This document shows positions 26,839 through 49,940 of a DNA stretch of 64,000 bases, piece by piece (position 1 is the first letter of the stretch; every line of letters begins with the position of its first letter). The translations under genes were made by a program, and so were the position numbers. This DNA comes from Allomuricauda ruestringensis DSM 13258 (GTDB lineage: Bacteria > Bacteroidota > Bacteroidia > Flavobacteriales > Flavobacteriaceae). The stretch spans positions 1,685,501 through 1,749,500 of the forward strand of contig NC_015945.1 of NCBI RefSeq assembly GCF_000224085.1, read 5' to 3'. The notes below the pieces were generated by a model. It did not search any database. It was not told the origin of the DNA and saw nothing but the letters and a program-made list of their open reading frames with translations.

Positions 26839-26882
26839 GTGACCATTGTCATTTGATGGTTTCGCCTTACGAAGTAATTTTA
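26839..26882 (+). promoter_or_regulatory. Crp/Fnr-type site plus -7 element for the 26.9 kb gene
   Basis: GTGAC-CATT-GTCAT (26839-26852, one mismatch from GTNAC-N4-GTNAC) is centred 33 bp upstream of TAATTTTA (26875-26882). The ATG follows at 26903. The geometry is identical to the other members of the set described in the findings. Confidence 0.65.
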
Positions 26883-26902
26883 TGTGATTAAAGAGTCATG
26901 TT

Positions 26903-27226
26903 ATGAAAGAACCATATACAACATCGCAAACTAGGATTTATTGGATTCTTTTGATACTATCCTTAATTATCGGTTTCGTTTTGTACGGCTTTTTGCAAGA
27001 ACAATTTAGCTTGCAATTTCTTGTTTTTTTCTCTGGTGTTCCCTTTTTGTTATTTGTGACAGGAGTTTTTGGATTATTATGGCCCAAATTAAAGCCAGAA
27101 GGAGATGAGGTATATATTATTCATGCATTGCTAATAGGATTGTTATTTATCATTCTATTTTTCATTCACGTTTGGATTTTATTACCGCGAATTTGTCCGA
27201 ATTTTGGTGAGTGTTTGGGATTTTGA
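26903..27226 (+). CDS. Small membrane protein of the island, unknown function
   Basis: The protein has 107 residues with three predicted membrane helices (WILLILSLIIGFVLYGF, FLVFFSGVPFLLFVTGVFGLLW, ALLIGLLFIILFFIHVWILL). Two cysteines sit in the C-terminal tail (RICPNFGECLGF). No family is recognised. It is the first gene inside the island, and its promoter carries the shared Crp/Fnr-type palindrome at the canonical spacing, so it probably belongs to the same sulfur/redox regulon. A CxxxxxC tail on a membrane protein would fit a thiol role, but this is speculation. Confidence 0.7.
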   Translation: MKEPYTTSQTRIYWILLILSLIIGFVLYGFLQEQFSLQFLVFFSGVPFLLFVTGVFGLLWPKLKPEGDEVYIIHALLIGLLFIILFFIHVWILLPRICPNFGECLGF

Positions 27227-27364
27227 TTTAGAATATGCAATAAATCAAAATTGATATGGAATCAATTCTTACAATTGTTGAATTGAACTTTGGCAATGAT
27301 TTCCTATTTACCGTCAATAACGGAGTACGTTTGTTATTGCAACCATGAAAGAAGAAACCGTTTC

Positions 27365-27388
27365 ATTGACCGTGGTAGACCGGTCAAT
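27365..27388. repeat. 8-bp perfect inverted repeat
   Basis: ATTGACCG (27365-27372) and CGGTCAAT (27381-27388) are separated by 8 bp, in the non-coding stretch 27227-27607. There is no T-run after it. It may be an operator relic; nothing else in that stretch looks like a gene. Confidence 0.4.
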
Positions 27389-27607
27389 CAGTTAAAGAAA
27401 GTAGCTTAATTATTTTATTGATTTTTATAGTAAGCTTGTCCTAAGGATTTAGATACCTAAAATACCGCCATTCTCCAATTACTAAAAAATAATATATCAA
27501 TTTAACTTGAAGAACAAAAAGACTGATGATGCTATTGAAAGTTTGGTCAACTTTAAGCAGTTTTCATCCCTAAATCCTTAACCAGAAAATATTCTCGGAA
27601 GAAATAA

Positions 27608-27778: not shown

Positions 27779-27831
27779 TTCATTGAATTAGAGCCTGTGT
27801 AATCGTTAAACAACCGTTAAAGTTCAGTAGT

Positions 27832-27875
27832 GTAACATTCGTTACTGCAAAGATCTTTATCATAAGTTATTTTTA
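27832..27875 (+). promoter_or_regulatory. Crp/Fnr-type site plus -7 element of the peroxiredoxin operon
   Basis: GTAAC-ATTC-GTTAC (27832-27845) is a perfect palindromic pair centred exactly 33 bp from TATTTTTA (27868-27875). The ATG is at 27914. It is one of the exact matches to the shared motif. Confidence 0.75.
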
Positions 27876-27913: not shown

Positions 27914-28579
27914 ATGGAAAATTCTTATTCAGAAAACGAAAAAGTAAATCAAATGCCCCGAATTGGGGATATGGCTCCAGATTTTGAGGCCGTGACCACT
28001 AAAGGAAAGATTAAGTTCTCGGAATTTGCCAAGGATAAATGGATCGTAATGTTCTCCCACCCTGCAGATTTTACACCTGTATGCACAACGGAAATGAGCG
28101 GGTTCGCACAAAGAAAAGATGAATTTGATGCCTTAAATACTGAACTTCTTGGTTTAAGTATCGATAGTATTCACGCCCACTTGGGTTGGGTTCAAAATGT
28201 AAGGGAAAACACTGGTGTATACTTCGATTTCCCAATTATTGCAGATTTGGACATGAAGGTATCCAAATTGTACGGAATGCTTCAACCCAACGAAAGTGAA
28301 ACCGCAGCAGTACGCGCTGTTTTCTTTATCGATCCAGCTAAAAAAATCAGATTGATCATGTACTATCCTTTAAATGTTGGTAGGAACATGGATGAAATAT
28401 TAAGGGCCTTGGAAGCGCTACAAACCTCGGATGAGTACAAAGTTGCCATGCCTTTGGATTGGAAAAAAGGAGATAAGGTTATTGTTTCCCCTCCTAAGAC
28501 TCTAGATGAACTTAATGAAAGACTTGCGGACGATACACTTGAAAAAGTGGATTGGTACCTTGCCAAGAAAGAAATCTAA
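27914..28579 (+). CDS. 1-Cys peroxiredoxin (Prx6 type)
   Basis: The protein has 221 residues from ATG 27914; the upstream in-frame start at 27890 lies too close to the -7 element. The peroxidatic Cys57 is in PADFTPVC, and I see no other cysteine in the protein, so it must be a 1-Cys enzyme needing an external thiol. The long C-terminal arm (FPIIADLDMKVSKLYGM to KGDKVIVSPP) is typical of Prx6. Substrates are hydrogen and organic peroxides. It heads the island operon with the CstB-like and Dps genes and is under the shared Crp/Fnr-type site. Confidence 0.93.
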   Translation: MENSYSENEKVNQMPRIGDMAPDFEAVTTKGKIKFSEFAKDKWIVMFSHPADFTPVCTTEMSGFAQRKDEFDALNTELLGLSIDSIHAHLGWVQNVRENTGVYFDFPIIADLDMKVSKLYGMLQPNESETAAVRAVFFIDPAKKIRLIMYYPLNVGRNMDEILRALEALQTSDEYKVAMPLDWKKGDKVIVSPPKTLDELNERLADDTLEKVDWYLAKKEI

Positions 28580-28635: not shown

Positions 28636-29976
28636 ATGGAAATAAAACAGTTTGAATATAAACCTTTAGCCCACTATTCCTATGCTATTGTGGATAATGG
28701 TGAAATGGCCGTTATAGATCCAGAAAGGGATCCTATGCAGTACTATGTGTTTGCACAAGAACATGGTGCAAAAATAGTAGCCGTTATTGAAACCCATCCA
28801 CACGCTGATTTTGTGAGTTCCCACTTGCAAATACACCAAGAAACCGGAGCACCTATTTATCACAGCAAAGATTTGGGTGCCGACTATGAATATGAGCCTT
28901 TTGATGAAGGTCAAAGTATTATGGTCGGGGATATCAAGGTTTCTGCCTTAAATACTCCAGGACACTCACCAGACAGTATTACCGTTGTAGCCGAAAAAGA
29001 CGGAAAAACAGCACTCTTTACAGGGGACACCCTTTTTATTGGGGACGTAGGACGACCAGATTTACGTGAAAAAGCCGGTAATATGACCGCAAAGCGTCAA
29101 GAACTGGCCGAAATGATGTATGATACCGTCCAAAATAAATTCAAGGATCTGCCCGATGGAGCTTTGGTGTACCCCGCTCATGGGGCCGGTTCCTTATGTG
29201 GAAAAAACCTGAGTTCTGACAATAGCAGTACTCTCGGCAACGAAAGAATGGGTAACTGGGCCTTTAAACCTCAATCAAAAGAAGAATTTGTAAATACCCT
29301 TTTGGATAGCCAACCCTTTATCCCATCTTATTTTGGATTTGATGTGGATATCAATAGACGAGGTCCAGAAAATCTAAGAACCTCCATTGCAAAAGTGCCT
29401 CTACAATTAAATACAAGTATCAGTGGATTAATTGTGGATGTCAGGGACGAAACAGAATTTAAAAAAGGGCACCTGCCAGGGAGCATCAATATTATGGCCG
29501 TTTCGGAAGACTCAAAGTTTGAAACCTGGCTGGGTGCCATAGTTAATCCAGGAGAACCCTTTAGTTTGGTTATCGATAAACCGGATGACATGGAAAAAAT
29601 ATTGGAAAGGGTTGCTAAAATCGGATATGAGAAGCAAGTGAATTTGGTTTTGACGTTGGATGAAACCGAGCTTTTACAAAGTGATAAAATTGACCTGACA
29701 CATTTTAAAAACAACCCCGATGAGTATACTATTGTGGATATCCGTAACCAAAGTGAAACCAATGAGGGAAAGTATTTTGAAAACGCCATACACATACCAT
29801 TGAATGAACTACGAAATTCAAAAAACCATATCCCAACTGATAGGCCAATTGTAGTTCATTGTGAAGGTGGTTATAGAAGTGCTATCGGAAGCAGCATTGT
29901 AGGGAATATGCATGACAAAGCAAATGTCTTCGATTTAAGCGAAAATATAGATAACTTTAAAAAAACAAAAAGATGA
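28636..29976 (+). CDS. CstB-like persulfide dioxygenase-rhodanese fusion (island copy)
   Basis: The protein has 446 residues from ATG 28636. The N-terminal metallo-beta-lactamase domain is ETHE1-like: ETHPHADFVSSH, FTGDTLFIGDVGRPDL and YPAHGAGS carry the iron ligands. Two rhodanese-like domains follow. The first (LIVDVRDETEFKKGHLPGS) lacks the catalytic Cys, whereas the second has HCEGGYRSAIG with it. This layout matches CstB of staphylococci (about 444 residues). The enzyme is expected to oxidise low-molecular-weight persulfide to sulfite/thiosulfate. It overlaps the Dps gene by 4 nt. A paralogue lies at 46.7-48.1 kb. Confidence 0.88.
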   Translation: MEIKQFEYKPLAHYSYAIVDNGEMAVIDPERDPMQYYVFAQEHGAKIVAVIETHPHADFVSSHLQIHQETGAPIYHSKDLGADYEYEPFDEGQSIMVGDIKVSALNTPGHSPDSITVVAEKDGKTALFTGDTLFIGDVGRPDLREKAGNMTAKRQELAEMMYDTVQNKFKDLPDGALVYPAHGAGSLCGKNLSSDNSSTLGNERMGNWAFKPQSKEEFVNTLLDSQPFIPSYFGFDVDINRRGPENLRTSIAKVPLQLNTSISGLIVDVRDETEFKKGHLPGSINIMAVSEDSKFETWLGAIVNPGEPFSLVIDKPDDMEKILERVAKIGYEKQVNLVLTLDETELLQSDKIDLTHFKNNPDEYTIVDIRNQSETNEGKYFENAIHIPLNELRNSKNHIPTDRPIVVHCEGGYRSAIGSSIVGNMHDKANVFDLSENIDNFKKTKR

Positions 29977-30452
29977 AAAAATCCGAATTAAACAACATTG
30001 GTCTAGAAATTAATGACTCAAAGCAAGTTGCAGAAAAGTTAAACGACCTGTTATCAAACTACCAACAATTCTATATGAATTTAAGGGGATTTCATTGGAA
30101 CATTAAAGGAAAAAAATTCTTTGAACTACATTTAAAATTTGAAGAACTGTATAACGATGCTTTAGAAAAAGTAGATGAGATAGCAGAGCGTATACTCACT
30201 TTAAGTCAATCGCCATATCATACATTTTCAAAATACCTAAACCATTCAGAAATTAAGGAAGCAGAAAATGTTTCGGATGGTGAAACAGCAATTGACAATG
30301 TTTTAAAAGCTCTAAAAATTTTACTTTCAAAAGAAAGAGTGATCTTAAAAGAAGCAGCTGACGCAGACGACGAAGGTACCGTAGCCCTTATGAGTGAATA
30401 CATTGTGGAGCAAGAAAAATTGGTTTGGATGTTATCTGCATATAAGAGTTGA
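29973..30452 (+). CDS. dps: Dps-family DNA-protecting ferritin-like protein
   Basis: The protein has 159 residues. The ferroxidase ligands of Dps lie in LRGFHWNIKG and in the following LHLKFEELYNDALEKVDEIAERI. Dps forms 12-mers that bind DNA, oxidise Fe(II) with peroxide and store iron, limiting Fenton chemistry. Its ATG overlaps the stop of the CstB-like gene (ATGA), so it belongs to the same operon. Combined with the peroxiredoxin this is a peroxide/persulfide-protection cassette. A terminator follows at 30475. Confidence 0.94.
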   Translation: MKKSELNNIGLEINDSKQVAEKLNDLLSNYQQFYMNLRGFHWNIKGKKFFELHLKFEELYNDALEKVDEIAERILTLSQSPYHTFSKYLNHSEIKEAENVSDGETAIDNVLKALKILLSKERVILKEAADADDEGTVALMSEYIVEQEKLVWMLSAYKS

Positions 30453-30547: not shown

Positions 30548-31882
30548 ATGGAAGATATGCTTTTCTATGACCGAATGCAATTTGCATTTACTATTACCTT
30601 TCACTATCTCTTCCCTCAATTGACAATGGGATTATCCCTAATGATTGTCTATTTTAAGTGGAAGTTTTTAAGAACTAAAATCGACACATACAATGATGCA
30701 GCAAAGTTTTGGATGAAAATCTTTGCACTCAATTTTGCTATGGGTGTAGTTACAGGAATCCCCATGGAGTTTCAATTTGGCACAAATTGGGCTAAATTCT
30801 CTGAACTTACCGGAGGGATAATTGGACAGACTTTAGCAATGGAAGGGATGTTTTCCTTTTTCTTGGAATCATCATTTCTTGGGCTTTTTCTGTTTGGGGA
30901 AAAGCTACTTGGACATAAGCTTCATTTTGTCACCGGGTTTTTGGTATTTCTTGGCTCATGGGCAAGCGGGTATCTCATTATCGCCACACATTCTTGGATG
31001 CAACATCCTGTAGGTTACGAAATCCTTGAAAACGGCAAGTTTGTTTTAAACAATTTTTCCGCATTATTTTCCAATCCTTGGTTACTTCCAGCTTATTTAC
31101 ACAATCAATTGGCTTCACTTATTACAGCATCCTTTGTAGTGGCAGCTATTGGAGCTTTCTATCTATTGAATAACAAACATGGTGAGTTTGGAAAATTATT
31201 TGTTAAAACAGGAGTGGTCTTTGGTTTGGTCTCTAGCATCTTGGTTGCATTTCCAACAGGGGATTGGACCGCTAAAAATGTTGTTAAGCACCAACCTGTA
31301 ACCTTTGCAGCTATGGAAGGAATTTTTGAGACAGAAAAAGGTGGTTCTGAAATTATTTTGATCGGACAACCTGATATGGAAAATAAAAAACTGGACAATA
31401 AGGTTGCAGTACCGAATATATTGAGTTTTTTAACTTATCAAAGTTGGGATGCCGAAATTAAAGGCTTAAATGAATTTGATAAAAGCCTATACCCAACCAA
31501 TGTCCCAGGGCTATATTATGCCTATCATATTATGGTAGGACTTGGCACCATATTTATAGGGTTAATGTTGGCAGCTTCAATTCAACTGTATAGAAAAAGA
31601 CTTTATAAAACAAAATGGATTCTCTGGTCATTGTTATTAATGTTACCTCTTCCATACATTGCCAATACAACAGGTTGGTACACCGCCGAATTAGGCCGTC
31701 AACCATGGTTGGTTTACAACCTTTTAAAAACTGGAGACGGTATATCGCCAACAGTATCTTCAGGTAATACTTTATTTACACTTCTAGGGTTTATTGGACT
31801 TTACTTATTATTGGGACTCTTATTTTTAATATTAGTGGGCAAAATCATCAATAAAGGACCTCTTGCCTTAAAACACAATTAA
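30548..31882 (+). CDS. cydA: Cytochrome bd ubiquinol oxidase subunit I
   Basis: The protein has 444 residues with about nine membrane helices. His19 in TFHYLFPQL is the conserved haem ligand of CydA, and HSWMQHP and GRQPW are further signatures. It is about 80 residues shorter than E. coli CydA, consistent with the short Q-loop class. Together with CydB it forms a high-affinity quinol oxidase that is relatively insensitive to sulfide and resistant to peroxide, which suits the rest of the island. A second in-frame ATG is 9 nt downstream. No shared Crp/Fnr motif is present before this gene. Confidence 0.94.
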   Translation: MEDMLFYDRMQFAFTITFHYLFPQLTMGLSLMIVYFKWKFLRTKIDTYNDAAKFWMKIFALNFAMGVVTGIPMEFQFGTNWAKFSELTGGIIGQTLAMEGMFSFFLESSFLGLFLFGEKLLGHKLHFVTGFLVFLGSWASGYLIIATHSWMQHPVGYEILENGKFVLNNFSALFSNPWLLPAYLHNQLASLITASFVVAAIGAFYLLNNKHGEFGKLFVKTGVVFGLVSSILVAFPTGDWTAKNVVKHQPVTFAAMEGIFETEKGGSEIILIGQPDMENKKLDNKVAVPNILSFLTYQSWDAEIKGLNEFDKSLYPTNVPGLYYAYHIMVGLGTIFIGLMLAASIQLYRKRLYKTKWILWSLLLMLPLPYIANTTGWYTAELGRQPWLVYNLLKTGDGISPTVSSGNTLFTLLGFIGLYLLLGLLFLILVGKIINKGPLALKHN

Positions 31883-31884
31883 CT

Positions 31885-32961
31885 ATGGAATTATTCTGGT
31901 ACATTGTTTTAATGACTATGCTGGCCATATATGTTATTTTAGATGGCTATGATTTTGGGGCAGGGATCATTCACTTGTTCTTTGCTAAAAACGAAAAAGA
32001 TAAAAAAGCCATTACGAATGCCATTGGTCCTTTTTGGGATGCCAATGAAGTTTGGTTGATTGCAGCTGGCGGTGTATTATTTTTTGCATTTCCTACCTTA
32101 TATGCTTCCTCGTTCAGTGGTTTTTATTTACCGCTCATAATAATACTTTGGCTACTTATTTTCAGGGCAATCGGATTGGAATTAAGAGGACAAATACACA
32201 ATAAAATTTGGGAAATTGTATGGGATAAAGCCTTTGGAATAGCGAGTTTTTTATTGGCTTTGTTTTTTGGTGTTGCCTTGGGAAATGTGGTTAGAGGTGT
32301 CAATCTGGGCATGGTTGCAAATGGGGTTTCAACTCAAGAAGCCCATTATTTTTTCTTGCCACTGTGGAACCCGACTTTTAGTCCGAAAGCCGAACATTTG
32401 GGTATTATTGATTGGTTTACACTGCTGTTAGGGGTCATCGGTGTTGTCTCATTGACTATCCATGGTGCAAATTGGATTATTTTCAAAACAAATTCATCGT
32501 TAAATAAAAAGCTTAAGAGAGTAGTATTCCGCCTAAATATAGCCCTTATCATTTTAGTGATCATATCACTGTTAGTTTGGCATATCATTGAGCCCAAGCC
32601 TTTTCATAATTTTATTGAAACACCTTGGTTATGGGTATTTCCCATAATCACTTTCACGGGATTATTTGGTCTATTTAAAGTGAGGTCTTTCAAAAAAGAT
32701 GGCATGGGATTCCTGTTTTCATCTTTGTTTTTGTTGGGAGGGTTCACATCTACTGCAGCCTCAATTTTTCCAAACCTACTACCATCAAGCAATGGTATTA
32801 ATCCATCCCTAACAATCGAAAATGTTGCAGCCCATGAATATGGTTTATCCGTTGGTATCAACTGGTTTGTTCTGGCAGTTTTGTTAGTGATTATTTATAT
32901 GGCCATCCAGTATAGGGTGTTTAAGGGTAAGATGGATGATGTTGGTTATGGAGAACATTAA
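31885..32961 (+). CDS. cydB: Cytochrome bd ubiquinol oxidase subunit II
   Basis: A 358-residue, eight-to-nine-helix membrane protein. The N-terminus has the family signature LDGYDFGAGIIHLF, and GPFWDANEVWLI follows. It begins 2 nt after the cydA stop. CydB stabilises the haem-bearing CydA subunit, and the pair is complete. No cydX- or cydDC-like gene lies in this window. It is the last gene of the island; beyond it are about 570 nt without coding potential up to the tRNA-Arg gene. Confidence 0.94.
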   Translation: MELFWYIVLMTMLAIYVILDGYDFGAGIIHLFFAKNEKDKKAITNAIGPFWDANEVWLIAAGGVLFFAFPTLYASSFSGFYLPLIIILWLLIFRAIGLELRGQIHNKIWEIVWDKAFGIASFLLALFFGVALGNVVRGVNLGMVANGVSTQEAHYFFLPLWNPTFSPKAEHLGIIDWFTLLLGVIGVVSLTIHGANWIIFKTNSSLNKKLKRVVFRLNIALIILVIISLLVWHIIEPKPFHNFIETPWLWVFPIITFTGLFGLFKVRSFKKDGMGFLFSSLFLLGGFTSTAASIFPNLLPSSNGINPSLTIENVAAHEYGLSVGINWFVLAVLLVIIYMAIQYRVFKGKMDDVGYGEH

Positions 32962-34215: not shown

Positions 34216-34629
34216 TTAGTGTGGTAATTTACTCCTTAAAACGCCATACGCAAAGGCTCCAAGTAACGCTCCAACCAAAACAATGACTATGGGCCAATAC
34301 CCAGCTCCCACCAAAATATAGATAGGTCCGGGACAAGCTCCGGCCAAGGCCCACCCCAATCCAAAGAGTGCTCCTCCCAAAATGTATCTGGCAATTGATT
34401 TTTCTTTGTCCAGTATAGTAATTGTTTCTCCTGAAAATGATTTTAGCTTCGATTTTTTGATCCATTGCACCAAAACAATGCCCACTGCCAATGCCGAGCC
34501 AATGATTCCGTACATGTGGAACGAATCAAACTGGAACATTTCATATATCCTAAACCACGAAGCAGCTTCCGATTTATACAAAACAATTCCCAAAAAGATG
34601 CCCAATATGATGTATACTACATTCTTCAT
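34216..34629 (-). CDS. YeeE/YedE-family sulfur transporter, C-terminal half protein
   Basis: The protein has 137 residues from ATG 34629. A longer frame running upstream is out of register with the real partner gene and is rejected. Four or so membrane helices are predicted. The sulfur-transport motif is present as GWALAGACPGPIYILVGAGY, with the Cys used in TsuA-type thiosulfate uptake. It overlaps the preceding YeeE half gene by 4 nt. The two proteins together would make one complete transporter. It is the last gene of the RND/sulfur operon. Confidence 0.85.
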   Translation of the reverse strand: MKNVVYIILGIFLGIVLYKSEAASWFRIYEMFQFDSFHMYGIIGSALAVGIVLVQWIKKSKLKSFSGETITILDKEKSIARYILGGALFGLGWALAGACPGPIYILVGAGYWPIVIVLVGALLGAFAYGVLRSKLPH

Positions 34630-35183
34630 ACCGTAAAAATTAAGGGAAACAACAAGTGAACCATGATCAATCCTCCGATAAAAAATCCGATAACTGCAAT
34701 CAAGGAAGGTCGCTGTAAATTGCTCAAACCAGAAATAGCATGCCCAGAGGTACAACCTCCCGCATATCTTGTGCCAAATCCTACCAAAAAGCCAGCCACC
34801 AAAAGAATGATCCACACTTTAGGATCGGCAAGGGATTCCACACTAAAAAGTTCCGTGGGCAAATAGGCTGTACCAGCACTATCAAACCCGAGTTCTTGCA
34901 ATTTGGTAACGGTTTTATCTGAAATGTTTACTGCTGGATTGGGGGAAAGCAGCTGAGCTCCAACAAACCCCCCGATTACAGAGCCAAGGACAACCAAAAG
35001 GTTCCAGCGTTTGGATTTTACATCTATTTTGAAGTAATCCGAAAACTTTCCAGCACCACCAATGGAACAAAAAGTCTCAAGGTTGGACGACATTCCAAAA
35101 CGTTTGCCCATAAGAATAAGCAAAGCCATGATCAGGGCAATGAGTGGGCCCGATACATACCAAGGCCAAGGTTGATAAAGCAT
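34626..35183 (-). CDS. YeeE/YedE-family sulfur transporter, N-terminal half protein
   Basis: The protein has 185 residues from ATG 35183, with GTG 35210 as an in-frame alternative. It is a membrane protein with the motif GTRYAGGCTSGHAISGLSNLQ, the conserved Cys-containing sulfur-relay signature of the YeeE/TsuA family. Split YeeE halves next to rhodaneses or MBL persulfide dioxygenases are common in Bacteroidota. Together with the next gene, which overlaps it, this forms the predicted pore for thiosulfate or a related sulfur species. Direction of transport (probably import) is inferred from TsuA. Confidence 0.87.
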   Translation of the reverse strand: MLYQPWPWYVSGPLIALIMALLILMGKRFGMSSNLETFCSIGGAGKFSDYFKIDVKSKRWNLLVVLGSVIGGFVGAQLLSPNPAVNISDKTVTKLQELGFDSAGTAYLPTELFSVESLADPKVWIILLVAGFLVGFGTRYAGGCTSGHAISGLSNLQRPSLIAVIGFFIGGLIMVHLLFPLIFTV

Positions 35184-35242
35184 TTTCGTGAGATTTTGGG
35201 CAAAGATCACGAAAATGCCTTAAATAACAAACTTATGGGATA

Positions 35243-35446
35243 TCAACAACAGTTCTTATCAGAATCTTGAACTCCGAATTTCTTCAAAATATCTTCCAAC
35301 AAGCACCATCTGGTCAAGGATGACTGAAGCAAGTTGGCCCCGACAAAAGCGGTAAACCAAAGCCAATTTTGACTTACATAAATAGCCAAAATCAGACTTA
35401 TTAATATAAACGTTCCCGCTACGCCTCTTACAATTCTATTTCTCAT
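35243..35446 (-). CDS. DUF2892 small membrane protein (YgaP-like TM domain)
   Basis: The protein has 67 residues with an opening RIVRGVAGTFILISLILAI, a second helix, and a C-terminal segment SLTRWCLLEDILKKFGVQDS ending in CC. DUF2892 is the membrane part of the rhodanese YgaP in E. coli, and it is often found free next to sulfur genes. The gene lies 10 nt after the PII-like gene and 59 nt before the first YeeE half, so is likely part of the same operon. A second DUF2892 gene is at 43.9 kb. The three cysteines could handle persulfide, but this is unproven. Confidence 0.82.
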   Translation of the reverse strand: MRNRIVRGVAGTFILISLILAIYVSQNWLWFTAFVGANLLQSSLTRWCLLEDILKKFGVQDSDKNCC

Positions 35447-35456
35447 AATTTAATTT

Positions 35457-35762
35457 TTATACAGTTCTTTCAATAGGTACCTCAACCGCCCGAATGGGGT
35501 TTGTGGTCTCACTTTTTTGGTTGAATTCTTCCAACAATTTGAAAAACTCGGTGACTTTTTCTTCCTCGGTGAAGGAAAAAAACAGGTTGGAAGCCGCTCC
35601 ACCCTTTTCACTTGGGAACCAACTATTGGTGTAGAACATAGGCGGAGTGTTTTTGTACCCATCTATGTCCGACCCGCTAAAATTTTCTATACCTGCCTTT
35701 TTGAAGAGTTTGAACACTTCCTTTTCATACTCTTCTACCGTGGTAACGATGATCATTTTCAT
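35457..35762 (-). CDS. Small PII/ferredoxin-like-fold protein of the RND operon
   Basis: A 101-residue cytoplasmic protein with an alternating beta-alpha-beta pattern: MKMIIVTTVEEYEKEVFKLF, then a loop, then ASNLFFSFTEEEKVTEFFKLLEE, and a terminal IRAVEVPIERTV. The fold resembles PII/DUF3240-type proteins that often sit beside RND pump genes, but a strict motif match is missing, so family membership is moderate. It lies 105 nt after the RND permease and 10 nt before a DUF2892 gene. It may modulate transport by binding a small ligand. Confidence 0.6.
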   Translation of the reverse strand: MKMIIVTTVEEYEKEVFKLFKKAGIENFSGSDIDGYKNTPPMFYTNSWFPSEKGGAASNLFFSFTEEEKVTEFFKLLEEFNQKSETTNPIRAVEVPIERTV

Positions 35763-35867
35763 GTGCTTATTTTTATAGTTTTTTCAATGGTCACATGGAA
35801 CCTTTGACGACTAAAAGAATCATTGTACTGTGTGTCCAAAGATTATTTTAGTCGTGTCGGTTTCATT

Positions 35868-39062: not shown

Positions 39063-39078
39063 TGTTAGCGTTTTTGGG

Positions 39079-40170: not shown

Positions 40171-40177
40171 GTTGCAA

Positions 40178-41501: not shown

Positions 41502-41545
41502 CAAAATTAAATTTGGCTATTCAACTGCACAGTAACCTTGGTTAC
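41502..41545 (-). promoter_or_regulatory. Crp/Fnr-type site plus -7 element of the RND/YeeE operon
   Basis: GTAAC-CTTG-GTTAC (41532-41545) is a perfect palindromic pair. Its centre is exactly 33 bp from the minus-strand -7 TAATTTTG (41509-41502), with the tolC ATG at 41482. The remainder of the gap 41546-41787 holds no gene; only the 3' side of the flavoprotein gene follows. Confidence 0.78.
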
Positions 41546-41787: not shown

Positions 41788-43245
41788 CTATTCTGGAATT
41801 AACCACCAAAAGGGTTTCATTTTTGCTTTGTAAAGGAAGGCGTGGTGCAATGCCAACTTCAGCCAATGTCCGGCAAGACCAATGGTACCAAAGGTTTTGC
41901 CCAATTTTCTGCCGTGTGTGTCTGGATATTTCTTAAAATCCGGCACAATGGGGTAGGTGGTTATGCTGATACCACTGCCCTTCGTCATCCCAAATCCTGC
42001 CGATGCTATGCATGCTGCGCCCATATTACCCATAGACCCTTTGTGATGGAGTTCATCATTGGAATGCTTGATCATTTCTATGATGTTGTCGGCCACCAAT
42101 TTTGCAGTGATGCCCGATGGCATTCCCGTTCTTGGAGGAGCGGGTGAAATATCGGTGCCATTTTTGCTCTTTCTGGGTTTGGAAATACTGTGTGGTGGTG
42201 CAAAGGCAATTCCTGGGGCAAAAATATTGGGATAGGAAGGGTTTTGATAGGTTTCCGGCCAATCCTGTACACTCCACTCTTCATAAGGTTTGGGTGTGTA
42301 GTCGGCATCCACGATCATGAATCCCCTAAAAAGTCTGTCCGTGATATCGCCCCCTGTTTTGTCGTAGGCCTTAAAACCATGACCTGAAAAGGAAGGAATC
42401 AACATGGCAAAATCAAAAGATTCCTGTTTTTGCTCCCCTCCAAGGTTTTCATAATGGGCCACCCCATCTTCCACTTTATGGACACCAGCTCCCAAAATCC
42501 ATTTGATTCCCCTATCCTCAAAAACCATTTCCACCATTTCACTGGACTTCATAATGTTGCTTCCATAACTCAACAACATACCGTCCATGCCAAAATCTCC
42601 AAGATTATATTCATTGGCAATCCAGGTGATCTCAGCCATATCCCTCACTTTGTGCCTACGCAGCTCTTGTTCCACGTTCAGGATGTATTCGAAGGCTGCA
42701 CCCTGGCAGGTTGATTTCGCATGCCCGGTCCCAATCAAAATTTTGGCCTTTTTCCCCTGTTTCATTTGTTGGATAAGATCATTCAGGGCGTTCCATGCCT
42801 CATCGGCATGGGTATAGGTGCAAACGGAATGGGCTTTATTTTTTCCGGGGGACAGTCCTTCAGTGGCTTCAAAATTGAGTTTTGGCCCAGTGGCATTGAT
42901 CAGGTAATCATAGGTCACTTTTTCCGTGGCTCCTTTTTCGTTCCCTGACACATATTCTGCCAACACATAAGGTTTTGGCTCTTGCTGGTCGCCTTCGGGA
43001 TGGAAACTGACGGCCTTGGCCTGTTTATAATCGATATGTTTTTTTGCATACAAGGGTGCCAATGGGAACAGGATGTCCTTCGGTTTCATTCTGCCAATTC
43101 CCACCCAGATATTGGAAGGGATCCATTGGTAGTTACTGTTGGGTGACACCACCACTACTTCATGCGCTTTGGAGAGCTTTCTTCTGAGATGGGATGCGGC
43201 CACATGACCTGCTATACCAGCTCCAAGGACGACTATTTTGGCCAT
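41788..43245 (-). CDS. Sulfide:quinone oxidoreductase-like FAD-dependent enzyme
   Basis: A 485-residue two-dinucleotide-fold flavoprotein with the N-terminal FAD site VVLGAGIAGHVAA. Cysteines sit in SVCTYTH, STCQGAAFEY and GAACIASAG, as in sulfide:quinone oxidoreductases, which oxidise sulfide to sulfane sulfur and reduce the quinone pool. Its C-terminus has a hydrophobic region (WLKLALHHAFLYKAK) for membrane association. It fits with CstB-like persulfide dioxygenases downstream in sulfide detoxification. Its promoter carries a shared site. The substrate is inferred from fold, cysteines and context; related type II NADH dehydrogenases or flavocytochrome c-type enzymes are the alternative. Confidence 0.78.
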   Translation of the reverse strand: MAKIVVLGAGIAGHVAASHLRRKLSKAHEVVVVSPNSNYQWIPSNIWVGIGRMKPKDILFPLAPLYAKKHIDYKQAKAVSFHPEGDQQEPKPYVLAEYVSGNEKGATEKVTYDYLINATGPKLNFEATEGLSPGKNKAHSVCTYTHADEAWNALNDLIQQMKQGKKAKILIGTGHAKSTCQGAAFEYILNVEQELRRHKVRDMAEITWIANEYNLGDFGMDGMLLSYGSNIMKSSEMVEMVFEDRGIKWILGAGVHKVEDGVAHYENLGGEQKQESFDFAMLIPSFSGHGFKAYDKTGGDITDRLFRGFMIVDADYTPKPYEEWSVQDWPETYQNPSYPNIFAPGIAFAPPHSISKPRKSKNGTDISPAPPRTGMPSGITAKLVADNIIEMIKHSNDELHHKGSMGNMGAACIASAGFGMTKGSGISITTYPIVPDFKKYPDTHGRKLGKTFGTIGLAGHWLKLALHHAFLYKAKMKPFWWLIPE

Positions 43246-43262: not shown

Positions 43263-43306
43263 CAAAGTTAGCTTTTGGTTACCAGATATAAAGTGACCTA
43301 GGTCAC
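43263..43306 (-). promoter_or_regulatory. Crp/Fnr-type site plus -7 element of the SQR-like gene
   Basis: GTGAC-CTAG-GTCAC (43293-43306) is a fully symmetric palindrome centred exactly 33 bp from the minus-strand -7 TAACTTTG (43270-43263), with the ATG at 43245. Confidence 0.78.
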
Positions 43307-43866: not shown

Positions 43867-44073
43867 CTAATTCTTGACCTTACATGTACTAATCCCCAAA
43901 AGGGTGTACAAAGGACAAAAACTAACAAAGCTCGTTAAGACAAACATGACAGCTAATGCCAGCAATATATACGCTAATGTTCCTGTAATCACATTAAAAT
44001 AATACAGTGCCCCTACACCAAGTGCCAGGATAATCCGAATTGTGCGGTCTGCACCGCCCATGTTTTTTTTCAT
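43867..44073 (-). CDS. DUF2892 small membrane protein (second copy)
   Basis: The protein has 68 residues with the DUF2892 opening MGGADRTIRIILALGVGALYYF, a second helix (LLALAVMFVLTSFVSF) and the family ending CPLYTLLGISTCK. It is flanked by composite palindromic elements on both sides and lies between the SQR-like gene and the fatty acid hydroxylase gene. Membership in the sulfur set is suggested by location and by the paralogue in the RND operon. I see no shared promoter motif before it. Confidence 0.85.
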   Translation of the reverse strand: MKKNMGGADRTIRIILALGVGALYYFNVITGTLAYILLALAVMFVLTSFVSFCPLYTLLGISTCKVKN

Positions 44074-44235: not shown

Positions 44236-44376
44236 GCCCAGAACTAAATTTTATGTTCAAAATGCACAATGGGTTCTTGCTATACAATTTACCAAAAATT
44301 GGATCAGCTTGTGCAGCTTCTTTTTGATTTTCAAAGAATTGTTTTAAAAAAGTAGAGGTTCATTGCAAACCGGATA

Positions 44377-44419
44377 GTAAACTTGGTTGCACAGATGCAC
44401 TATTTTTAAAGTATTTTTG
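44377..44419 (+). promoter_or_regulatory. Weak Crp/Fnr-type site plus -7 element before the hydroxylase gene
   Basis: GTAAA-CTTG-GTTGC (44377-44390, two mismatches from GTNAC-N4-GTNAC) is centred 32 bp from TATTTTTG (44412-44419). The ATG is at 44463. It is a weaker member of the set and possibly chance. Confidence 0.35.
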
Positions 44420-45344: not shown

Positions 45345-45944
45345 CTAATCAGAAGAGCTTTTTGAAGCATCGAAAACTATACTCCAAATACCTCGTACCT
45401 CATCGGGCCCATAACCAACTGCCTTGTCTTCTGGATAAAGTTTTGATAAATGGGTTAGCACCTCTGGAGCAATATTTTTTTCTGGGATTCCATGACAATT
45501 CAAGCACAAACCTGTGGTAATAATAGGGTAGTAGAAATAAACTTCCCCGTTTGCCTTATCCAAAATAGGTGCGATTGAATCACCTGATGCAACTGCTTTC
45601 TTAAATGTTTCTATATATGTCAATTCTGTGGCATTGGCCTTATTGTTGGGATTTCGGGGTTTATCGGAAACCCTTTTTATTCGGGCGTTAAACTTTGTAG
45701 CCATGCTATCCGTTAATGGATAGGCTTTCTCGTTACAGAAAACAACAGCCTCCTCTACACCCTTGTTCTGTATAGTTTCCATTAATGTTTTTCCCAAAAC
45801 TTTCTGGGTTCCTTGGGCATAGGACATGCCTATTTCTGCATAATCAGGATTTTCGGGCGATACTTTTTTATCCGATATTTTTGGCCCCTGCTTACAGGAA
45901 AGGAGCAGCAGAAAAATTAATATGGAAATTGGAGAAAATCGCAT
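45345..45944 (-). CDS. DUF3365 c-haem lipoprotein
   Basis: A 199-residue protein with a lipoprotein signal (ISILIFLLLLSCKQG). A DUF3365/Tll0287-like domain follows, with one haem-binding CxxCH motif in LCLNCHG near residue 150 and earlier single Cys in VVFCNEKAY. It is a predicted periplasmic, lipid-anchored, haem-containing sensor or electron carrier. The ATG overlaps the stop of the upstream HMA gene by one base (TAATG), so translation is coupled with it. The rhodanese-HMA-DUF3365 trio forms one operon under a shared Crp/Fnr-type site. Confidence 0.83.
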   Translation of the reverse strand: MRFSPISILIFLLLLSCKQGPKISDKKVSPENPDYAEIGMSYAQGTQKVLGKTLMETIQNKGVEEAVVFCNEKAYPLTDSMATKFNARIKRVSDKPRNPNNKANATELTYIETFKKAVASGDSIAPILDKANGEVYFYYPIITTGLCLNCHGIPEKNIAPEVLTHLSKLYPEDKAVGYGPDEVRGIWSIVFDASKSSSD

Positions 45945-46234
45945 TATTTGGATATTTTACCACTGGCACAACTTACAAAATATTTTGCTTTTTCCACAAA
46001 ACCATTTTCCTCATCATTAGTGGGGTAGCCCATTTGTTTGAGGGTTTCCTTAACCAAGGAAGCATCATCGGTGCTTTGATGTTCAAAGCTGACCGATGAG
46101 CTATCCTTCTCCACAATCACATCTTTTATTTCTTTTATTTCTGATAATTCCTTCGAAATGGTATTGATACACCCTCCGCATTTGAGGTTTTGTAGCCGGA
46201 ATGTTGTTTTTATATTGACTATATCCAGATCAAT
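45944..46234 (-). CDS. HMA-domain metallochaperone with non-standard start
   Basis: My translation of the gap between the rhodanese and haem-protein genes gives 96 residues with the HMA motif LKCGGCINTI (the C-x2-C of heavy-metal-associated domains) and a beta-alpha-beta-beta-alpha-beta character. It ends ...SCASGKISK. No ATG, GTG or TTG opens the frame before the HMA motif. The in-frame codon ATT (46234-46232) overlaps the rhodanese TGA by one base, in the position where ATG would normally give an ATGA overlap; the next near-start codon is CTG at 46228. Both ends are translationally coupled, so the gene is real. Use of ATT or CTG as start, or a frameshifted rhodanese-HMA fusion, are the alternatives. 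Confidence 0.7.
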   Translation of the reverse strand: MDLDIVNIKTTFRLQNLKCGGCINTISKELSEIKEIKDVIVEKDSSSVSFEHQSTDDASLVKETLKQMGYPTNDEENGFVEKAKYFVSCASGKISK

Positions 46235-46574
46235 AGCACCAACCCATGTATCCGCCTTTTAAATCGTAAACCTTGGTGAAGCCCAAACTCACCAGCTTTT
46301 TTGCTGCTTTTTGACTTCTATTTCCAGATTGGCAATAAATGTACACGGGAACATCTTTTTTCAATTTTGAAAAAGCCGATTCAAATACAGGCCCTTGGAA
46401 AAAATCAATGTTCTTGGCTCCTTTTATATGACCGGACATAAATTCTCTCTTTGTTCTAACATCAACCAATTGGACCTTAGCTTTGGAAATGGCTTCTTTA
46501 TATTTATCCCTATCCAAAATATTGATTTCATCAGGGAGATTTTGTTCTTTGAACAAAAAACTGAATATTGACAT
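46230..46574 (-). CDS. Single-domain rhodanese
   Basis: The protein has 114 residues. The rhodanese signatures are VQLVDVRTKREFMSGHIKGAKNID and the active-site loop YCQSGNRSQKA with the catalytic Cys. It transfers sulfane sulfur between donors and acceptors such as glutathione or thiols. It is the first gene of the rhodanese-HMA-DUF3365 operon under the shared Crp/Fnr-type site at 46626-46639. The C-terminus is GGYMGWCY, with a Cys right before the stop, which overlaps the HMA gene. Confidence 0.9.
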   Translation of the reverse strand: MSIFSFLFKEQNLPDEINILDRDKYKEAISKAKVQLVDVRTKREFMSGHIKGAKNIDFFQGPVFESAFSKLKKDVPVYIYCQSGNRSQKAAKKLVSLGFTKVYDLKGGYMGWCY

Positions 46575-46594: not shown

Positions 46595-46639
46595 CTAAAA
46601 TACCTCAACCAACCTATGAGGGTCAGTAACGATAGTTAC
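46595..46639 (-). promoter_or_regulatory. Crp/Fnr-type site plus -7 element of the rhodanese operon
   Basis: GTAAC-GATA-GTTAC (46626-46639) is a perfect palindromic pair centred 34 bp from the minus-strand -7 TATTTTAG (46602-46595). The ATG is at 46574. Confidence 0.72.
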
Positions 46640-46681: not shown

Positions 46682-48091
46682 TTACTTCAAAGTAGTAGGA
46701 CATACGTAATCCGTAACCGGAATTCCCGCATTTTTAATGTCGGCAAAACCGCCTGTTACATCAACTAGGTTATGAATCCCCCTACTTTTTAAGATAGAAG
46801 AAGCTATCATGCTCCTATAACCTCCTGCACAATGGACATAGAACGTTTCTTGTTCTGGAAATTCTGCCATATGATTGTTGATAAAATCCAAAGGGGTTAA
46901 ATGAGCATCTTCCACGTGCTCTGCTTTAAATTCAGATTCTTTTCTAACATCATAAACGGGCACACCTTTATCCACTAATGCTTTTAGCGCTTCGGCATTA
47001 ACGCTGTCCACGGTATCAACTTCTTTCCTCGCTTTTTTCCAAGCCTCGATTCCTCCTTTCAAATAACCAAGGGTCTTGTCAAAACCTACCCTTGACAATC
47101 TGGTAATGGTTTCCTCTTCCCGTCCTTCGGGGGTTACGAGCAGAATCGGTTGTTTTACATCGGCAACCAGGGCACCGACCCAAGGAGCAAAACTTCCGTC
47201 CAGCCCAATAAATATGGAACGGGGCACATGGCCTTTGGCAAATTCATCTTGATGGCGCACATCGAGCACAATGGCCCCTGTTTCGTTGGCAGCAGTTTCA
47301 AAAGCCTCTGGAGATAGGGCTTGGGTTCCCCTTTCCAATATTTTGTCGATATCCTCGTAACCTTCTTTGTTCATTTTCACATTGAGTGGAAAGTATTGCG
47401 GTGGTGGCAAAAGGCCTTCTGTTACTTCCTCGATAAATTCATCTCTCGTCATATCTGCCCTGAGAGCGTAGTTCATTTTTTTCTGGTTGCCCAAGGTATC
47501 CACGGTTTCTTTCATCATGTTTTTTCCGCAAGCGGAACCGGCTCCGTGTGCCGGATAAACAATCACATCATCGGCCAATGGCATAATCTTGTTGCGAAGG
47601 CTATCAAACAAAGTACCGGCCAACTCTTCTTGCGTCATGTGGGCTGCCTTTTGGGCAAGGTCAGGCCTTCCCACATCTCCCAGGAACAAGGTGTCCCCGC
47701 TGAAAATGGCATGGTCTTTTCCATTTTCATCCTTCAACAAATAGGTTGTGCTTTCCATGGTATGCCCAGGCGTGTGCATAGCTGTTATGGTAATTTTCCC
47801 CAACTTAAACTCTTGCCCATCTTCAGCGATAATTGCATCAAAAGATGGTTTTGCCGTTGGGCCGTATACGATAGGTGCTCCTGTTTCTTTGGACAGCGTT
47901 ACGTGCCCGCTCACAAAATCCGCATGGAAATGGGTCTCAAAAATGTACTTGATGGTTGCCCTATCTTCCTTGGCCTTTTTTATGTAGGGCTGCACTTCCC
48001 TGAGTGGGTCTATAATGGCGGCTTCCCCTTCACTTTCTATATAATAGGCTCCTTGGGCCAAGCACCCTGTGTATATTTGTTCAATTTTCAT
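46682..48091 (-). CDS. CstB-like persulfide dioxygenase-rhodanese fusion (chromosomal copy)
   Basis: The protein has 469 residues with the same three-part layout as the island copy at 28636. The MBL domain carries ETHFHADFVSGH, FSGDTLFLGDVGRPDL and YPAHGAGS. The first rhodanese-like domain (IVLDVRHQDEFAKGHVPRS) has no catalytic Cys. The second has HCAGGYRSMI with Cys. It oxidises persulfide sulfur to sulfite and can produce thiosulfate by the rhodanese. Between the two copies the MBL motifs are conserved but not identical (ETHFHAD here, ETHPHAD in the island). It is monocistronic under a shared site that overlaps the end of the SulP gene. Confidence 0.9.
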   Translation of the reverse strand: MKIEQIYTGCLAQGAYYIESEGEAAIIDPLREVQPYIKKAKEDRATIKYIFETHFHADFVSGHVTLSKETGAPIVYGPTAKPSFDAIIAEDGQEFKLGKITITAMHTPGHTMESTTYLLKDENGKDHAIFSGDTLFLGDVGRPDLAQKAAHMTQEELAGTLFDSLRNKIMPLADDVIVYPAHGAGSACGKNMMKETVDTLGNQKKMNYALRADMTRDEFIEEVTEGLLPPPQYFPLNVKMNKEGYEDIDKILERGTQALSPEAFETAANETGAIVLDVRHQDEFAKGHVPRSIFIGLDGSFAPWVGALVADVKQPILLVTPEGREEETITRLSRVGFDKTLGYLKGGIEAWKKARKEVDTVDSVNAEALKALVDKGVPVYDVRKESEFKAEHVEDAHLTPLDFINNHMAEFPEQETFYVHCAGGYRSMIASSILKSRGIHNLVDVTGGFADIKNAGIPVTDYVCPTTLK

Positions 48092-48107
48092 TTCTTATGG
48101 TTTTTCC

Positions 48108-48151
48108 CAAAAATAAATTTACCTCTTGCACTTTTCAGTCACCAAAGTTAC
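48108..48151 (-). promoter_or_regulatory. Crp/Fnr-type site plus -7 element of the chromosomal CstB-like gene
   Basis: GTCAC-CAAA-GTTAC (48138-48151) matches GTNAC-N4-GTNAC and is centred exactly 33 bp from the minus-strand -7 TATTTTTG (48115-48108); the ATG is at 48091. The site overlaps the last 4 bases of the upstream SulP coding region. Confidence 0.75.
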
Positions 48152-49881
48152 AAACTCTTTGTCTTGGACTGTAAGGATACTTTTTTTTGCATAAGGCTTC
48201 GCTCCTTTTGTTCGCTACAAGAGTCCACCGCATCAAAAGTCTGGACAAACAGGTTTTCTTCCCCAAGAATATCAACGATTCCGCTACTGTACAGAATATC
48301 CCTTGTGGGACCTATGGCGGCTGCAATAAAAAAATGGATACCTCTTTTCCTCAAGTCGAGTATGATCCGTTCCAACATGCTCGCAGCACTGCTATCAATA
48401 TAATTGATGGGTTCTGCATTTAGGATGATGTACTTGAGGACAGGGCCTTTTTTTTCGATCTGTCGATAGAGTTGTTTTTTAAAATAATCCTTATTGCCAA
48501 AATACAACTGGGCATCGAACCGTATAACCAATTTATCTGCATCCACTTCCACATCTTCCGAGAAACGGTCAATGTTCTTATAATAGTGGGTTCCCCTGAC
48601 TTTTCCCAAAACGGCCATGTGAGGTTTGGATATTCTATATACGAGCAACATTAGGGAGAGCAATACTCCCAAAAGGATTCCCTCCATCAAACCAATAAAA
48701 AGGGTCATCAAAAAAGTGGCCGTCAACAGGAAAAACTCGTCCTTTCTGTTTTTCCACAATACCGAGGGGTATCTTATATCTATAAGGCCAACCACCGAAA
48801 CTATGATGATGGCACCCAAGACCACTGTGGGTAATTTGTAAAACAAGGGAGTGAGGAAGAGCAGTACGCCCGCTATAATAAGTGTGCTAAAGATAAGTGA
48901 CATCCCCGTTTTTGCCCCGGCCTGATCATTGACCGCGGTCCTTGAAAAACTGCCGGAAACTGAAAAAGACTGAAAGAATGAGCCCAAAATATTGGAAAGG
49001 CCCAAAGCTCGTAGCTCTTGGTCGGCATCCAGTTCGTATTCCGGATGTTTTTCCTCAACTGTCTTTGCTATGGAAACGGACTCCATAAACCCATAAAGCG
49101 CCACTGTTATGGCAATGGGCATGAGCTGTCCTATTTTGTCCCATTGGAATTGTGGGGGCTGAAAATCGGGAAGACCCTTTGGAATATCGCCCACAATATA
49201 GATTCCCTTTGTTTCCAAATTAAAAATCACTACTGCCAAGATACCGAGCACCACGATCAACAAGGGGGTGGGCAACTTTTTGTTGATGCTTTTTAGTAGA
49301 AACATCAAAAATATGGAAGCTGCGCCTAGCCCCAAGGTCAATAGGTCGACATTGTCCAGACTTCCAATAATATTGCCCAACAGTTCATAAATTTTACTGG
49401 ACTGTGCAAAGCTTGTCCCTAATATGTGTTTCAATTGTCCCAGACCTATCAATATGGCAGCAGCGGATGTAAATCCGCTAATGACCGGTTTGGACAAAAA
49501 ATTGACAAAAAAGCCCATTCTCAAAATACCCAAAAGAAGCTGTATTCCTCCTATGAGCAGGGTCAAAAAAAGTACGGTGGAAATATATTCCTCTGTGTTT
49601 ACCAGTTGTAGTGCGCCAACCCCTGCGGCCACCAACAACGAATCCATGGCCACAGGCCCCACGCCCAATTGCCTTGATGTTCCCATGAGAGCATATACCA
49701 AGGGAGGCACCAATGCAGCATATAGCCCATAGATCGGAGGCATTCCCGCGATCATCGCATAGGCCATTCCTTGTGGCACCAACATGATTCCTACGGTAAG
49801 GCCCGCAACCAAGTCTCCTCGGAGCAATGATTTGTTGTATGTGGCCATCCAAGATAAAAATGGCAAGTACCGTTTGATCAT
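48148..49881 (-). CDS. SulP-family anion transporter with STAS domain
   Basis: The protein has 577 residues from ATG 49881; the upstream in-frame extension to 49956 overlaps the regulator gene and is rejected. The SulP signature includes RGDLVAGLTVGIMLVPQGMAYA and the following GLYAALVPPLVYALMGTSRQ. About 12 helices precede a C-terminal STAS domain (YIDSSAASMLERIILDL). Members carry sulfate, bicarbonate or other anions. In this sulfur context sulfate or a related oxyanion is the likely cargo. Its promoter has a one-mismatch copy of the shared motif. Confidence 0.88.
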   Translation of the reverse strand: MIKRYLPFLSWMATYNKSLLRGDLVAGLTVGIMLVPQGMAYAMIAGMPPIYGLYAALVPPLVYALMGTSRQLGVGPVAMDSLLVAAGVGALQLVNTEEYISTVLFLTLLIGGIQLLLGILRMGFFVNFLSKPVISGFTSAAAILIGLGQLKHILGTSFAQSSKIYELLGNIIGSLDNVDLLTLGLGAASIFLMFLLKSINKKLPTPLLIVVLGILAVVIFNLETKGIYIVGDIPKGLPDFQPPQFQWDKIGQLMPIAITVALYGFMESVSIAKTVEEKHPEYELDADQELRALGLSNILGSFFQSFSVSGSFSRTAVNDQAGAKTGMSLIFSTLIIAGVLLFLTPLFYKLPTVVLGAIIIVSVVGLIDIRYPSVLWKNRKDEFFLLTATFLMTLFIGLMEGILLGVLLSLMLLVYRISKPHMAVLGKVRGTHYYKNIDRFSEDVEVDADKLVIRFDAQLYFGNKDYFKKQLYRQIEKKGPVLKYIILNAEPINYIDSSAASMLERIILDLRKRGIHFFIAAAIGPTRDILYSSGIVDILGEENLFVQTFDAVDSCSEQKERSLMQKKVSLQSKTKSL

Positions 49882-49896
49882 GTGATAGGTTTTATA

Positions 49897-49940
49897 CAAA
49901 AATAGGGTGACCCATGAAGAACCAATGTAACAAAGGACAC
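49897..49940 (-). promoter_or_regulatory. Crp/Fnr-type site plus -7 element of the SulP gene
   Basis: GTAAC-AAAG-GACAC (49927-49940, one mismatch from GTNAC-N4-GTNAC) is centred exactly 33 bp from the minus-strand -7 TATTTTTG (49904-49897). The ATG is at 49881. The site begins 2 bp after the stop of the Crp/Fnr gene. Confidence 0.65.

Follow-up and report, generated by a model that had tools for sequence, protein, structure and literature searches.

A Crp/Fnr-type operator at a fixed promoter position points to a reactive-sulfur regulon with an RND efflux pump in Allomuricauda ruestringensis

According to the accessible parts of the sources, persulfide-sensing regulons have been described for CstR in Staphylococcus aureus, SqrR/BigR in Proteobacteria and FisR in Cupriavidus and Acinetobacter (PMC9774590, PMC7315123), and the cyanobacterial regulator NtcA binds GTAN8TAC at about -41.5 (PMC3898017). 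A search of the open-licence PMC literature returned no description of a sulfide response in Bacteroidota, a negative that is weak as regards Crp/Fnr wording. Here we analyze a 64,000-nucleotide stretch of Allomuricauda ruestringensis DSM 13258 (the window: positions 1685501-1749500 of contig NC_015945.1, 1.7 % of a 3.84-Mb genome in a single contig), in which a first-pass annotation had recognized a palindrome, GTNAC-N4-GTNAC, as an operator shared by sulfur and redox promoters. We consider it fairly probable that these promoters are driven by a Crp/Fnr activator with an NtcA-like DNA-binding end and a thiol-switch, persulfide-sensing ligand end, and that its sulfur regulon includes an efflux pump.

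The exact palindrome was found at all five positions proposed (27832, 41532, 43293, 46626 and 48138), whereas 0.31 copies are expected in 64 kb; none of 100 shuffled sequences reached five, so the initial estimate of about one exact match by chance was too generous. The genome as a whole holds 24 exact copies, and the five in the window compare with an expectation of 0.40 (binomial P = 4e-5). The two one-mismatch copies, at 26839 and 49927, were also found; with up to one mismatch allowed, the window contains 17 matches vs 12.65 expected, and a single-mismatch copy is therefore no evidence when taken alone. That one-mismatch sites are no commoner than expected is what could be said for a chance or compositional origin of the sites, the probability of which we regard as negligible: it is ruled out by the excess of exact sites, the single favored offset and the matrix scores, and the genome ranking, the footprints and the co-occurrence described below argue against it as well.

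The operator is positioned with precision relative to a TAnnTTTG-like -7 element in the correct orientation. As the first-pass annotation had it, the centre-to-centre distance is 33 bp at six sites and 34 bp at 46626, so that TAnnTTTG in the window sites begins 29 nucleotides (30 at 46626) from the centre of the operator. The interval of 46-68 nt given there between site and ATG holds for the five exact sites and for 26839 (50 nt) but not for 49927, where it is 45 nt (ATG at 49881). The accessible part of PMC9723704 places the TAnnTTTG box of F. psychrophilum at -12 to -5. If this placement is also valid here, the operator is centred at -41.5 (-42.5 at 46626), i.e. at the position of a class II activator, in keeping with the activation from about -41 originally predicted.

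A weight matrix for the composite promoters, trained on relatives alone, recovered six of the seven sites noted, five of them with scores of 20.1-41.4 and 46626 with 17.5, the top score in 20 simulated windows being 13.0; the score of 46626 rises to 29.5 once a one-base-longer spacer is allowed. In parallel, the whole genome was searched with a model of the 56-nt promoter that uses sequence only, and the four best matches (E 2.8e-7 to 1.9e-5) all fell in the window, which is not what a motif equally common before unrelated genes would give. One alignment of the promoters covers 101 of 187 distinct ones. On the forward strand, the operator of the peroxiredoxin-CstB1-Dps operon (GTAACATTCGTTAC, 27832..27845) precedes the -7 element TATTTTTA at 27868-27875 (matrix 35.7, genome E 7.2e-6). 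All others are on the reverse strand. The operator of the TolC-MFP-RND-PIIlike-DUF2892-YeeE operon (41532..41545, -7 element TAATTTTG at 41502-41509) is the best of the genome (matrix 41.4, E 2.8e-7), and those of the SQR-like gene (GTGACCTAGGTCAC, 43293..43306, -7 element TAACTTTG at 43263-43270, matrix 32.7) and of CstB2 (48138..48151, -7 element TATTTTTG at 48108-48115, matrix 37.0) are among its top four. The rhodanese operon has an exact core at 46626..46639 with the longer spacer (-7 element TATTTTAG at 46595-46602), and SulP an imperfect operator, GTGTCCTTTGTTAC, at 49927..49940 (-7 element TATTTTTG at 49897-49904, matrix 20.1, genome E 0.077). An eighth, weak site with two mismatches, overlooked previously, lies before the DUF2892 gene 43867-44073: GCAACCAAGTTTAC at 44377..44390, with the -7 element TACTTTTT at 44347-44354. 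It scores 16.3, above the simulated maximum; a covariance model gave no match there.

To look at relatives, we used 80 named loci (1.59 Mb) obtained by a scan with an alignment of the regulator; they were selected as regulator carriers, and operator counts in them therefore reflect linkage as well as structure. They contain 312 distinct operator sites. At offset 29, an exact TAnnTTTG accompanies 196 of them on one side or both, and a TAnnTTTG with at most one mismatch accompanies 264 (52 on both sides). Counted per orientation, offset 29 collects 205 exact -7 matches and the runner-up 13, where the background frequency of TAnnTTTG (0.00063) predicts about 0.4 per offset. Altered operator spacers are rare (N3, 3; N5, 16; N6, 3), and the reversed motif occurs 99 times. 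The consensus of 300 distinct promoters, those behind the matrix, reads TnTGTAAC-N4-GTTACT...TAnTTTTG. This precision bears on the possibility that the regulator acts as a repressor from a site that overlaps the -33 element: the operator does extend into the -33 region, and CstR, SqrR and BigR are repressors according to the accessible parts of PMC9774590 and PMC7315123, but a class II activator should keep its position to within one base pair, as seen here across hundreds of promoters, and a repressor has no need to. We therefore consider repression improbable.

The sites have been conserved gene by gene. Orthologues were retained at a subject coverage of at least 60 % if the gene began no less than 150 bases inside the locus, the best one per locus being kept. 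The site was present before CstB2 in 70/70 loci, before TolC in 19/20 orthologues, before the 485-residue SQR in 9/9, before the peroxiredoxin in 6/6 and before SulP in 51/57, all of the latter at offset 29, 50 of the 51 cores being imperfect and only one exact. The DUF2892 gene downstream of 44377 has an exact-core site at the same offset in 48/55 orthologues, the rhodanese a site in 35/68 orthologue-like genes (12 of the 35 sharing the longer spacer), and CydA a site in 10/11 orthologues of the relatives' loci. Lower values were obtained for cyt199 (7/47), YeeE (3/14), CstB1 (1/5), Dps (0/1) and MFP (0/9; the gene is inside an operon), and the controls gave 0/31 for gene 50690 beyond the regulator, 0/6 each for xylA and xylB, and 324/8000 for random 320-nt stretches drawn from these loci.

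Outside the window, the next-best genomic match (912370, E 0.043) lies before a DUF983 gene, whose imperfect site is kept in 26/29 other loci of the genus (39 other genomes hold the gene; random stretches, 59/1160); DUF983, at 48 % identity, is also a target with perfect sites in Maribacter loci. Most of the 19 exact sites outside the window are within long open frames, and three that look intergenic (71027, 634273 and 2596668) are possible members of the regulon. The operator at 71027 precedes a short uncharacterized membrane protein, with a one-mismatch -7 element at offset 29, and that at 634273 a thioredoxin-like gene, with a two-mismatch -7 element. At 290558, a second Dps-like gene has an operator-like promoter (model E 5.7); this gene and the thioredoxin-like one were named from sequence.

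One of the seven sites first assigned to the operator set did not hold. The sequence GTGACCATTGTCAT (26839..26852, forward strand), before the membrane protein of the island, scores 7.7 with the matrix. This 107-residue protein has homologues in 7/71 genomes of the genus, its own genome included, and seven of the eight loci (the eighth is truncated at the end of its contig and was not used) align on TGAY-N4-RTCA instead of GTNAC-N4-GTNAC, followed at the usual distance by a TAAtTTtA-like box. TGAY-N4-RTCA is probably a second, FNR-like class of Crp-type operator. We therefore rejected 26839 as a member: it probably stands outside the regulon, partial cross-binding being possible. As a consequence, the link of the island to the regulon, which had been claimed, would come down to 27832, the promoter of peroxiredoxin-CstB-Dps.

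The candidate reader of the operator is the 210-residue Crp/Fnr-family protein encoded at 49943..50575 on the reverse strand, whose only Pfam matches are a cNMP-binding domain (PF00027, 1.8e-9) followed by a Crp-type HTH (PF13545, 4.1e-7), both above cut-off, and whose nearest named homologues are Muricauda/Allomuricauda/Flagellimonas proteins. Its recognition helix, HTSRVVVSR, aligns with STRVTVTR of NtcA and CSRETVGR of CRP, and the NtcA-type box GTA-N8-TAC is contained in the consensus GTAACN4GTTAC. Two structure models were obtained, a poor one (pLDDT 64.1) and a moderate one from AlphaFold (pLDDT 78.6); fold comparison confirmed Crp/Fnr and nothing finer, the top rows being tied.

In 120 genomes of the family, with stricter filters, a promoter threshold of E <= 0.001 and counts made among the matches listed, the promoter was found in 97/110 genomes with the regulator and 0/10 without (Fisher 1e-8), and in 73/75 of those holding the closest orthologues. 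Across the phylum, the figures are 23/57 vs 1/91 (1.8e-10); the 57 include 15 genomes of the family, every one of them with a match, which leaves 8/42 vs 1/91 outside it. The E 1e-77 cut dividing the regulators was chosen with the table in view, and three genomes without the promoter were assigned by elimination. Helix and half-site also vary together. In a wider set of 170 loci (164 distinct regulator sequences), from which one mixed-helix locus and duplicate sites were removed, two loci of unread helix type being kept apart, GTGAC half-sites make up 9/16 with Glu-type helices, which carry the Glu of CRP, vs 73/756 with Val-type ones (P 4.6e-6); against matched unnamed loci (17/136), P is 2e-4. 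This covariation is good evidence, short of experiment, that the 49943-50575 protein reads the operator, and together with co-occurrence and linkage it supports the control by this protein put forward in the first-pass annotation.

Another Crp/Fnr paralogue, or more than one, might instead recognize the operator. Several genomes of the family have two or more related proteins, and the FNR-like box at 26839 shares the -41.5 position. Yet only one protein of the genome has the NtcA-like R-V helix: five proteins match PF13545, four of them above cut-off, and the other three carry the helices ATESAIR, ATESLIR and AKETAIR. Moreover, promoter presence tracks the 49943-50575 family and the half-sites track its helix, which makes a different reader highly improbable; the 49943-50575 protein is, on these grounds, most likely the one that binds.

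The ligand end of the protein suggests what it may sense. The only conserved cysteines in the 80 orthologues are Cys77, Cys83 and Cys84, each in 80/80; Cys77 is present in 164/164 distinct homologues, a conserved cysteine such as a thiol-based persulfide sensor would need. A strict three-cysteine rule is weak, since the triple, invariant in the 80 close orthologues, is found in 135/164 distinct homologues. In CRP, Glu72 and Arg82 are cAMP contacts. They align with Val79 and Lys89 of the regulator, so that the cAMP contacts are lost, and the cysteines fall at the cAMP-binding loop. A thiol switch at Cys77 would be the natural reading of these residues, from which we infer persulfide sensing. 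Seven loci have homologues with Cys77 only (GG, HI, HL or HT at positions 83/84), possibly sister sensors for another signal.

The same cysteines could, with regulator and regulon unchanged, bind a cofactor (metal, haem or Fe-S), as happens in CooA and FNR, the signal being O2, NO or redox. The haem ligand of CooA, Cys75, is in the same fold region, the three cysteines are clustered, and Dps, peroxiredoxin, HemN and cytochrome bd are among the targets or their operons. A Crp-family protein of B. thetaiotaomicron, HcpR, binds haem, according to the accessible part of PMC13370916. However, most of the named targets are sulfur-related (SQR, CstB, rhodanese, TauE, YeeE, SorA-like, SoxA/TsdA-like, DsrE), and Cys77 alone is universal whereas residues 83 and 84 vary, so that a reactive thiol fits better than a cluster. 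A bound cofactor thus appears less likely than the thiol switch.

The promoter with the best match controls an operon (34216..41482, reverse strand) that encodes TolC (40178-41482), MFP (39079-40170), the RND permease (35868-39062), a 101-residue PII-like protein (35457-35762), a DUF2892 protein (35243-35446) and two YeeE/YedE halves (34626-35183 and 34216-34629). The permease belongs to the RND family (ACR_tran 1e-162, motif GIVVDDS with the paired membrane-domain aspartates D417-D418) and stays under the cut-off of the named multidrug subfamilies (best NCBIfam score 476 of 1250 bits). As to the gene names initially given, the HMA-like open reading frame and the c-haem protein of the rhodanese operon were found, but the PII assignment is tentative: PF00543 was matched by 1/10 orthologues (E 0.00099) and not by the window protein itself, and a PDB search with the 101-residue protein and its family returned nothing.

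To see which genes the promoter serves far from the regulator (on a different contig or at least some 18 kb distant), we hand-picked 20 strong model matches in 18 genomes among the matches listed, of which 19 gave a site and a gene. Nine precede TolC orthologues (55-64 % identity), two each CstB1 and thioredoxin, one each CstB2, TauE, YeeE, rhodanese, a di-haem peroxidase and an unassigned 117-residue protein, and one match is without a gene. The nine TolC loci, from nine genera, all have the order TolC-MFP-RND-101 aa-DUF2892 with the site at the expected spacing; since these loci were preselected for TolC, 9/9 describes the integrity of the operon, and the frequency of TolC as a target is 9/20. 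The permease, with 70-81 % identity in the nine loci, is better conserved than TolC and MFP. These remote operators make the RND pump, whose membership the first-pass annotation had proposed, a core member of the regulon, strongly conserved in the 19/20 TolC orthologues and the nine further genera. Its substrate is probably a toxic sulfur species or conjugate.

The other window targets are, on the forward strand, a peroxiredoxin (AhpC/TSA and 1-cysPrx_C, 27914..28579), the CstB1-like metallo-beta-lactamase (MBL)/rhodanese enzyme (28636..29976) and a Dps/ferritin-like protein (29973..30452). This operon adjoins cytochrome bd oxidase CydAB (30548..32961, forward), for which the matrix found no site of its own in the window, although CydA has one in relatives. 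On the reverse strand are the 485-residue SQR-like flavoprotein (41788..43245), the DUF2892/YgaP-like membrane protein (43867..44073), the rhodanese operon (45345..46574), CstB2 (46682..48091) and a SulP permease with a STAS domain (48148..49881). The rhodanese operon comprises a rhodanese (46230-46574), the HMA-like frame (motif LKCGGC) and a CXXCH haem protein (CLNCH, Pfam Tll0287-like, 45345-45944). CstB2, with an MBL and two rhodanese domains, resembles 3tp9 and 3r2u along nearly its entire length, and the combination of MBL and rhodanese in one chain, which CstB1 has too, is that of CstB. In relatives, the targets extend to an SQR near mitochondrial SQOR, TauE, DsrE, a SoxA/TsdA-like cytochrome, DUF2202, HemN, thioredoxins, a di-haem cytochrome c peroxidase and a SorA-like sulfite dehydrogenase whose score is below the NCBIfam cut-off. 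Another 90 loci around the regulator gave 78 promoter-like sites (77 distinct): CstB2 29, TauE 14, DUF983, rhodanese and YeeE 4 each, the regulator 3, DUF2892 2, SulP, TolC, SQR and cyt199 1 each, unassigned genes 5, no open reading frame 9. That the targets are largely sulfur genes supports the reactive-sulfur regulon proposed at the outset. A fatty-acid-hydroxylase-like gene of the window (44463-45341) has the operator upstream in 35/67 of the relatives' orthologues.

A mechanism can be outlined from these data. Rising sulfide-derived reactive sulfur would modify Cys77 where CRP has its cAMP pocket, and in most homologues Cys83/Cys84 as well; the regulator dimer would then bind GTAAC-N4-GTTAC centred at -41.5 (GTAACNNNNGTTAC is the predicted bound sequence) and, from this class II position, would recruit sigma-A RNA polymerase. 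Judging from family roles, SQR would produce persulfide, the CstB-type MBL/rhodanese enzymes and rhodaneses would process it, the SorA-like sulfite dehydrogenase, TauE and SulP would handle sulfite and sulfate, cytochrome bd would sustain respiration under sulfide, and peroxiredoxin, Dps and thioredoxins would afford redox protection. The TolC-MFP-RND pump, with the PII-like protein and DUF2892/YeeE, would form a core arm exporting sulfur species. More tentatively, the protein may represent a new class of persulfide-sensing Crp/Fnr activators, in Flavobacteriaceae and beyond in Bacteroidota, with a universal cysteine at the cAMP site, driving sulfide-oxidizing enzymes and a dedicated RND reactive-sulfur exporter of a new kind, possibly gated by a PII-like partner.

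Several observations weigh against this interpretation. Support for the regulon comes entirely from sequence, and its inducer, whether it is activated or repressed, and what the pump carries are inferred; reactive sulfur as the signal is suggested by target functions and cysteines, and O2, NO or peroxide as signals would likewise go with peroxiredoxin, Dps, HemN and cytochrome bd. In 29/164 distinct homologues another residue stands in place of Cys83 and/or Cys84, and some of their genomes still have the promoter; the second model, with pLDDT below 50 at residues 80-88, is too uncertain for the geometry of the cysteines. No promoter was found at E <= 0.001 in 13/110 regulator-bearing genomes of the family, 11 of which have diverged regulators, nor in 34/42 outside it. 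The P values for co-occurrence and covariation ignore relatedness and are too favorable, since the genomes are related and the regulator-less ones mostly small (although one is of 5.1 Mb); the covariation itself stems from eight informative Glu-type loci, three from one genus. Finally, the operator lies before the regulator gene in 2/80 loci and in 3/77 distinct sites of the further loci, and only a half-site is found upstream of the gene in the window. Autoregulation is therefore not favored, and the regulator is probably made without self-feedback.

If a cysteine in the old cAMP pocket of a Crp/Fnr activator does respond to persulfide, it adds an architecture to persulfide sensing, and the efflux pump appears to be a component so far not known in sulfur defence. 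The operator and its spacing rule allow a regulon to be read off directly in about a hundred genera (97/120 family genomes, among the matches listed), suggest roles for DUF983, DUF2892, the 101-residue PII-like protein and the RND pump, and make the substrate of the pump directly testable. The natural Val and Glu helices with matching GTAAC and GTGAC half-sites offer a clean case of a change of DNA specificity in the Crp family.

As far as the accessible parts of the sources go, the CstR, SqrR/BigR and FisR regulons resemble this one in their control of SQR, persulfide dioxygenase and TauE or YeeE, and, for CstR, SqrR and BigR, in cysteine sensing; they differ in that their regulators are of the CsoR, ArsR and sigma54 types instead of Crp/Fnr, and no RND pump is named for them. 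The A. baumannii BigR operon yeeE-yedE-pdo2 likewise joins YeeE/YedE to a persulfide dioxygenase, under another regulator, and the accessible part of PMC7315123 does not mention RND, MFP or TolC with it. Among Crp/Fnr proteins, CRP has the same fold and domain order, but here the cAMP contacts are lost and the regulator scores 60.3 bits against an NCBIfam equivalog cut-off of 266. With FNR it scores 24.2 bits against a subfamily cut-off of 228, and its cysteines are at 77/83/84, with no N-terminal cluster in the 80 orthologues. FNR/HcpR of Bacteroidota share the superfamily and, through the FNR-like box at 26839, the promoter position, but their half-site is TGAY vs GTAAC, and the other Crp-type proteins of the genome have different helices. 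The Crp/Fnr protein of Eubacterium rectale, 3dv8, has Ile at the position of Cys84 and the helix HREVITR. At its DNA-binding end the regulator resembles NtcA, with its GTA-N8-TAC contacts, a centre near -41.5, an R-V-x-V-x-R helix and the class II layout; it differs in that it scores 42.8 bits against the NtcA equivalog cut-off of 244.95, its targets are sulfur instead of nitrogen genes, and its pocket carries Cys77, Cys83 and Cys84.

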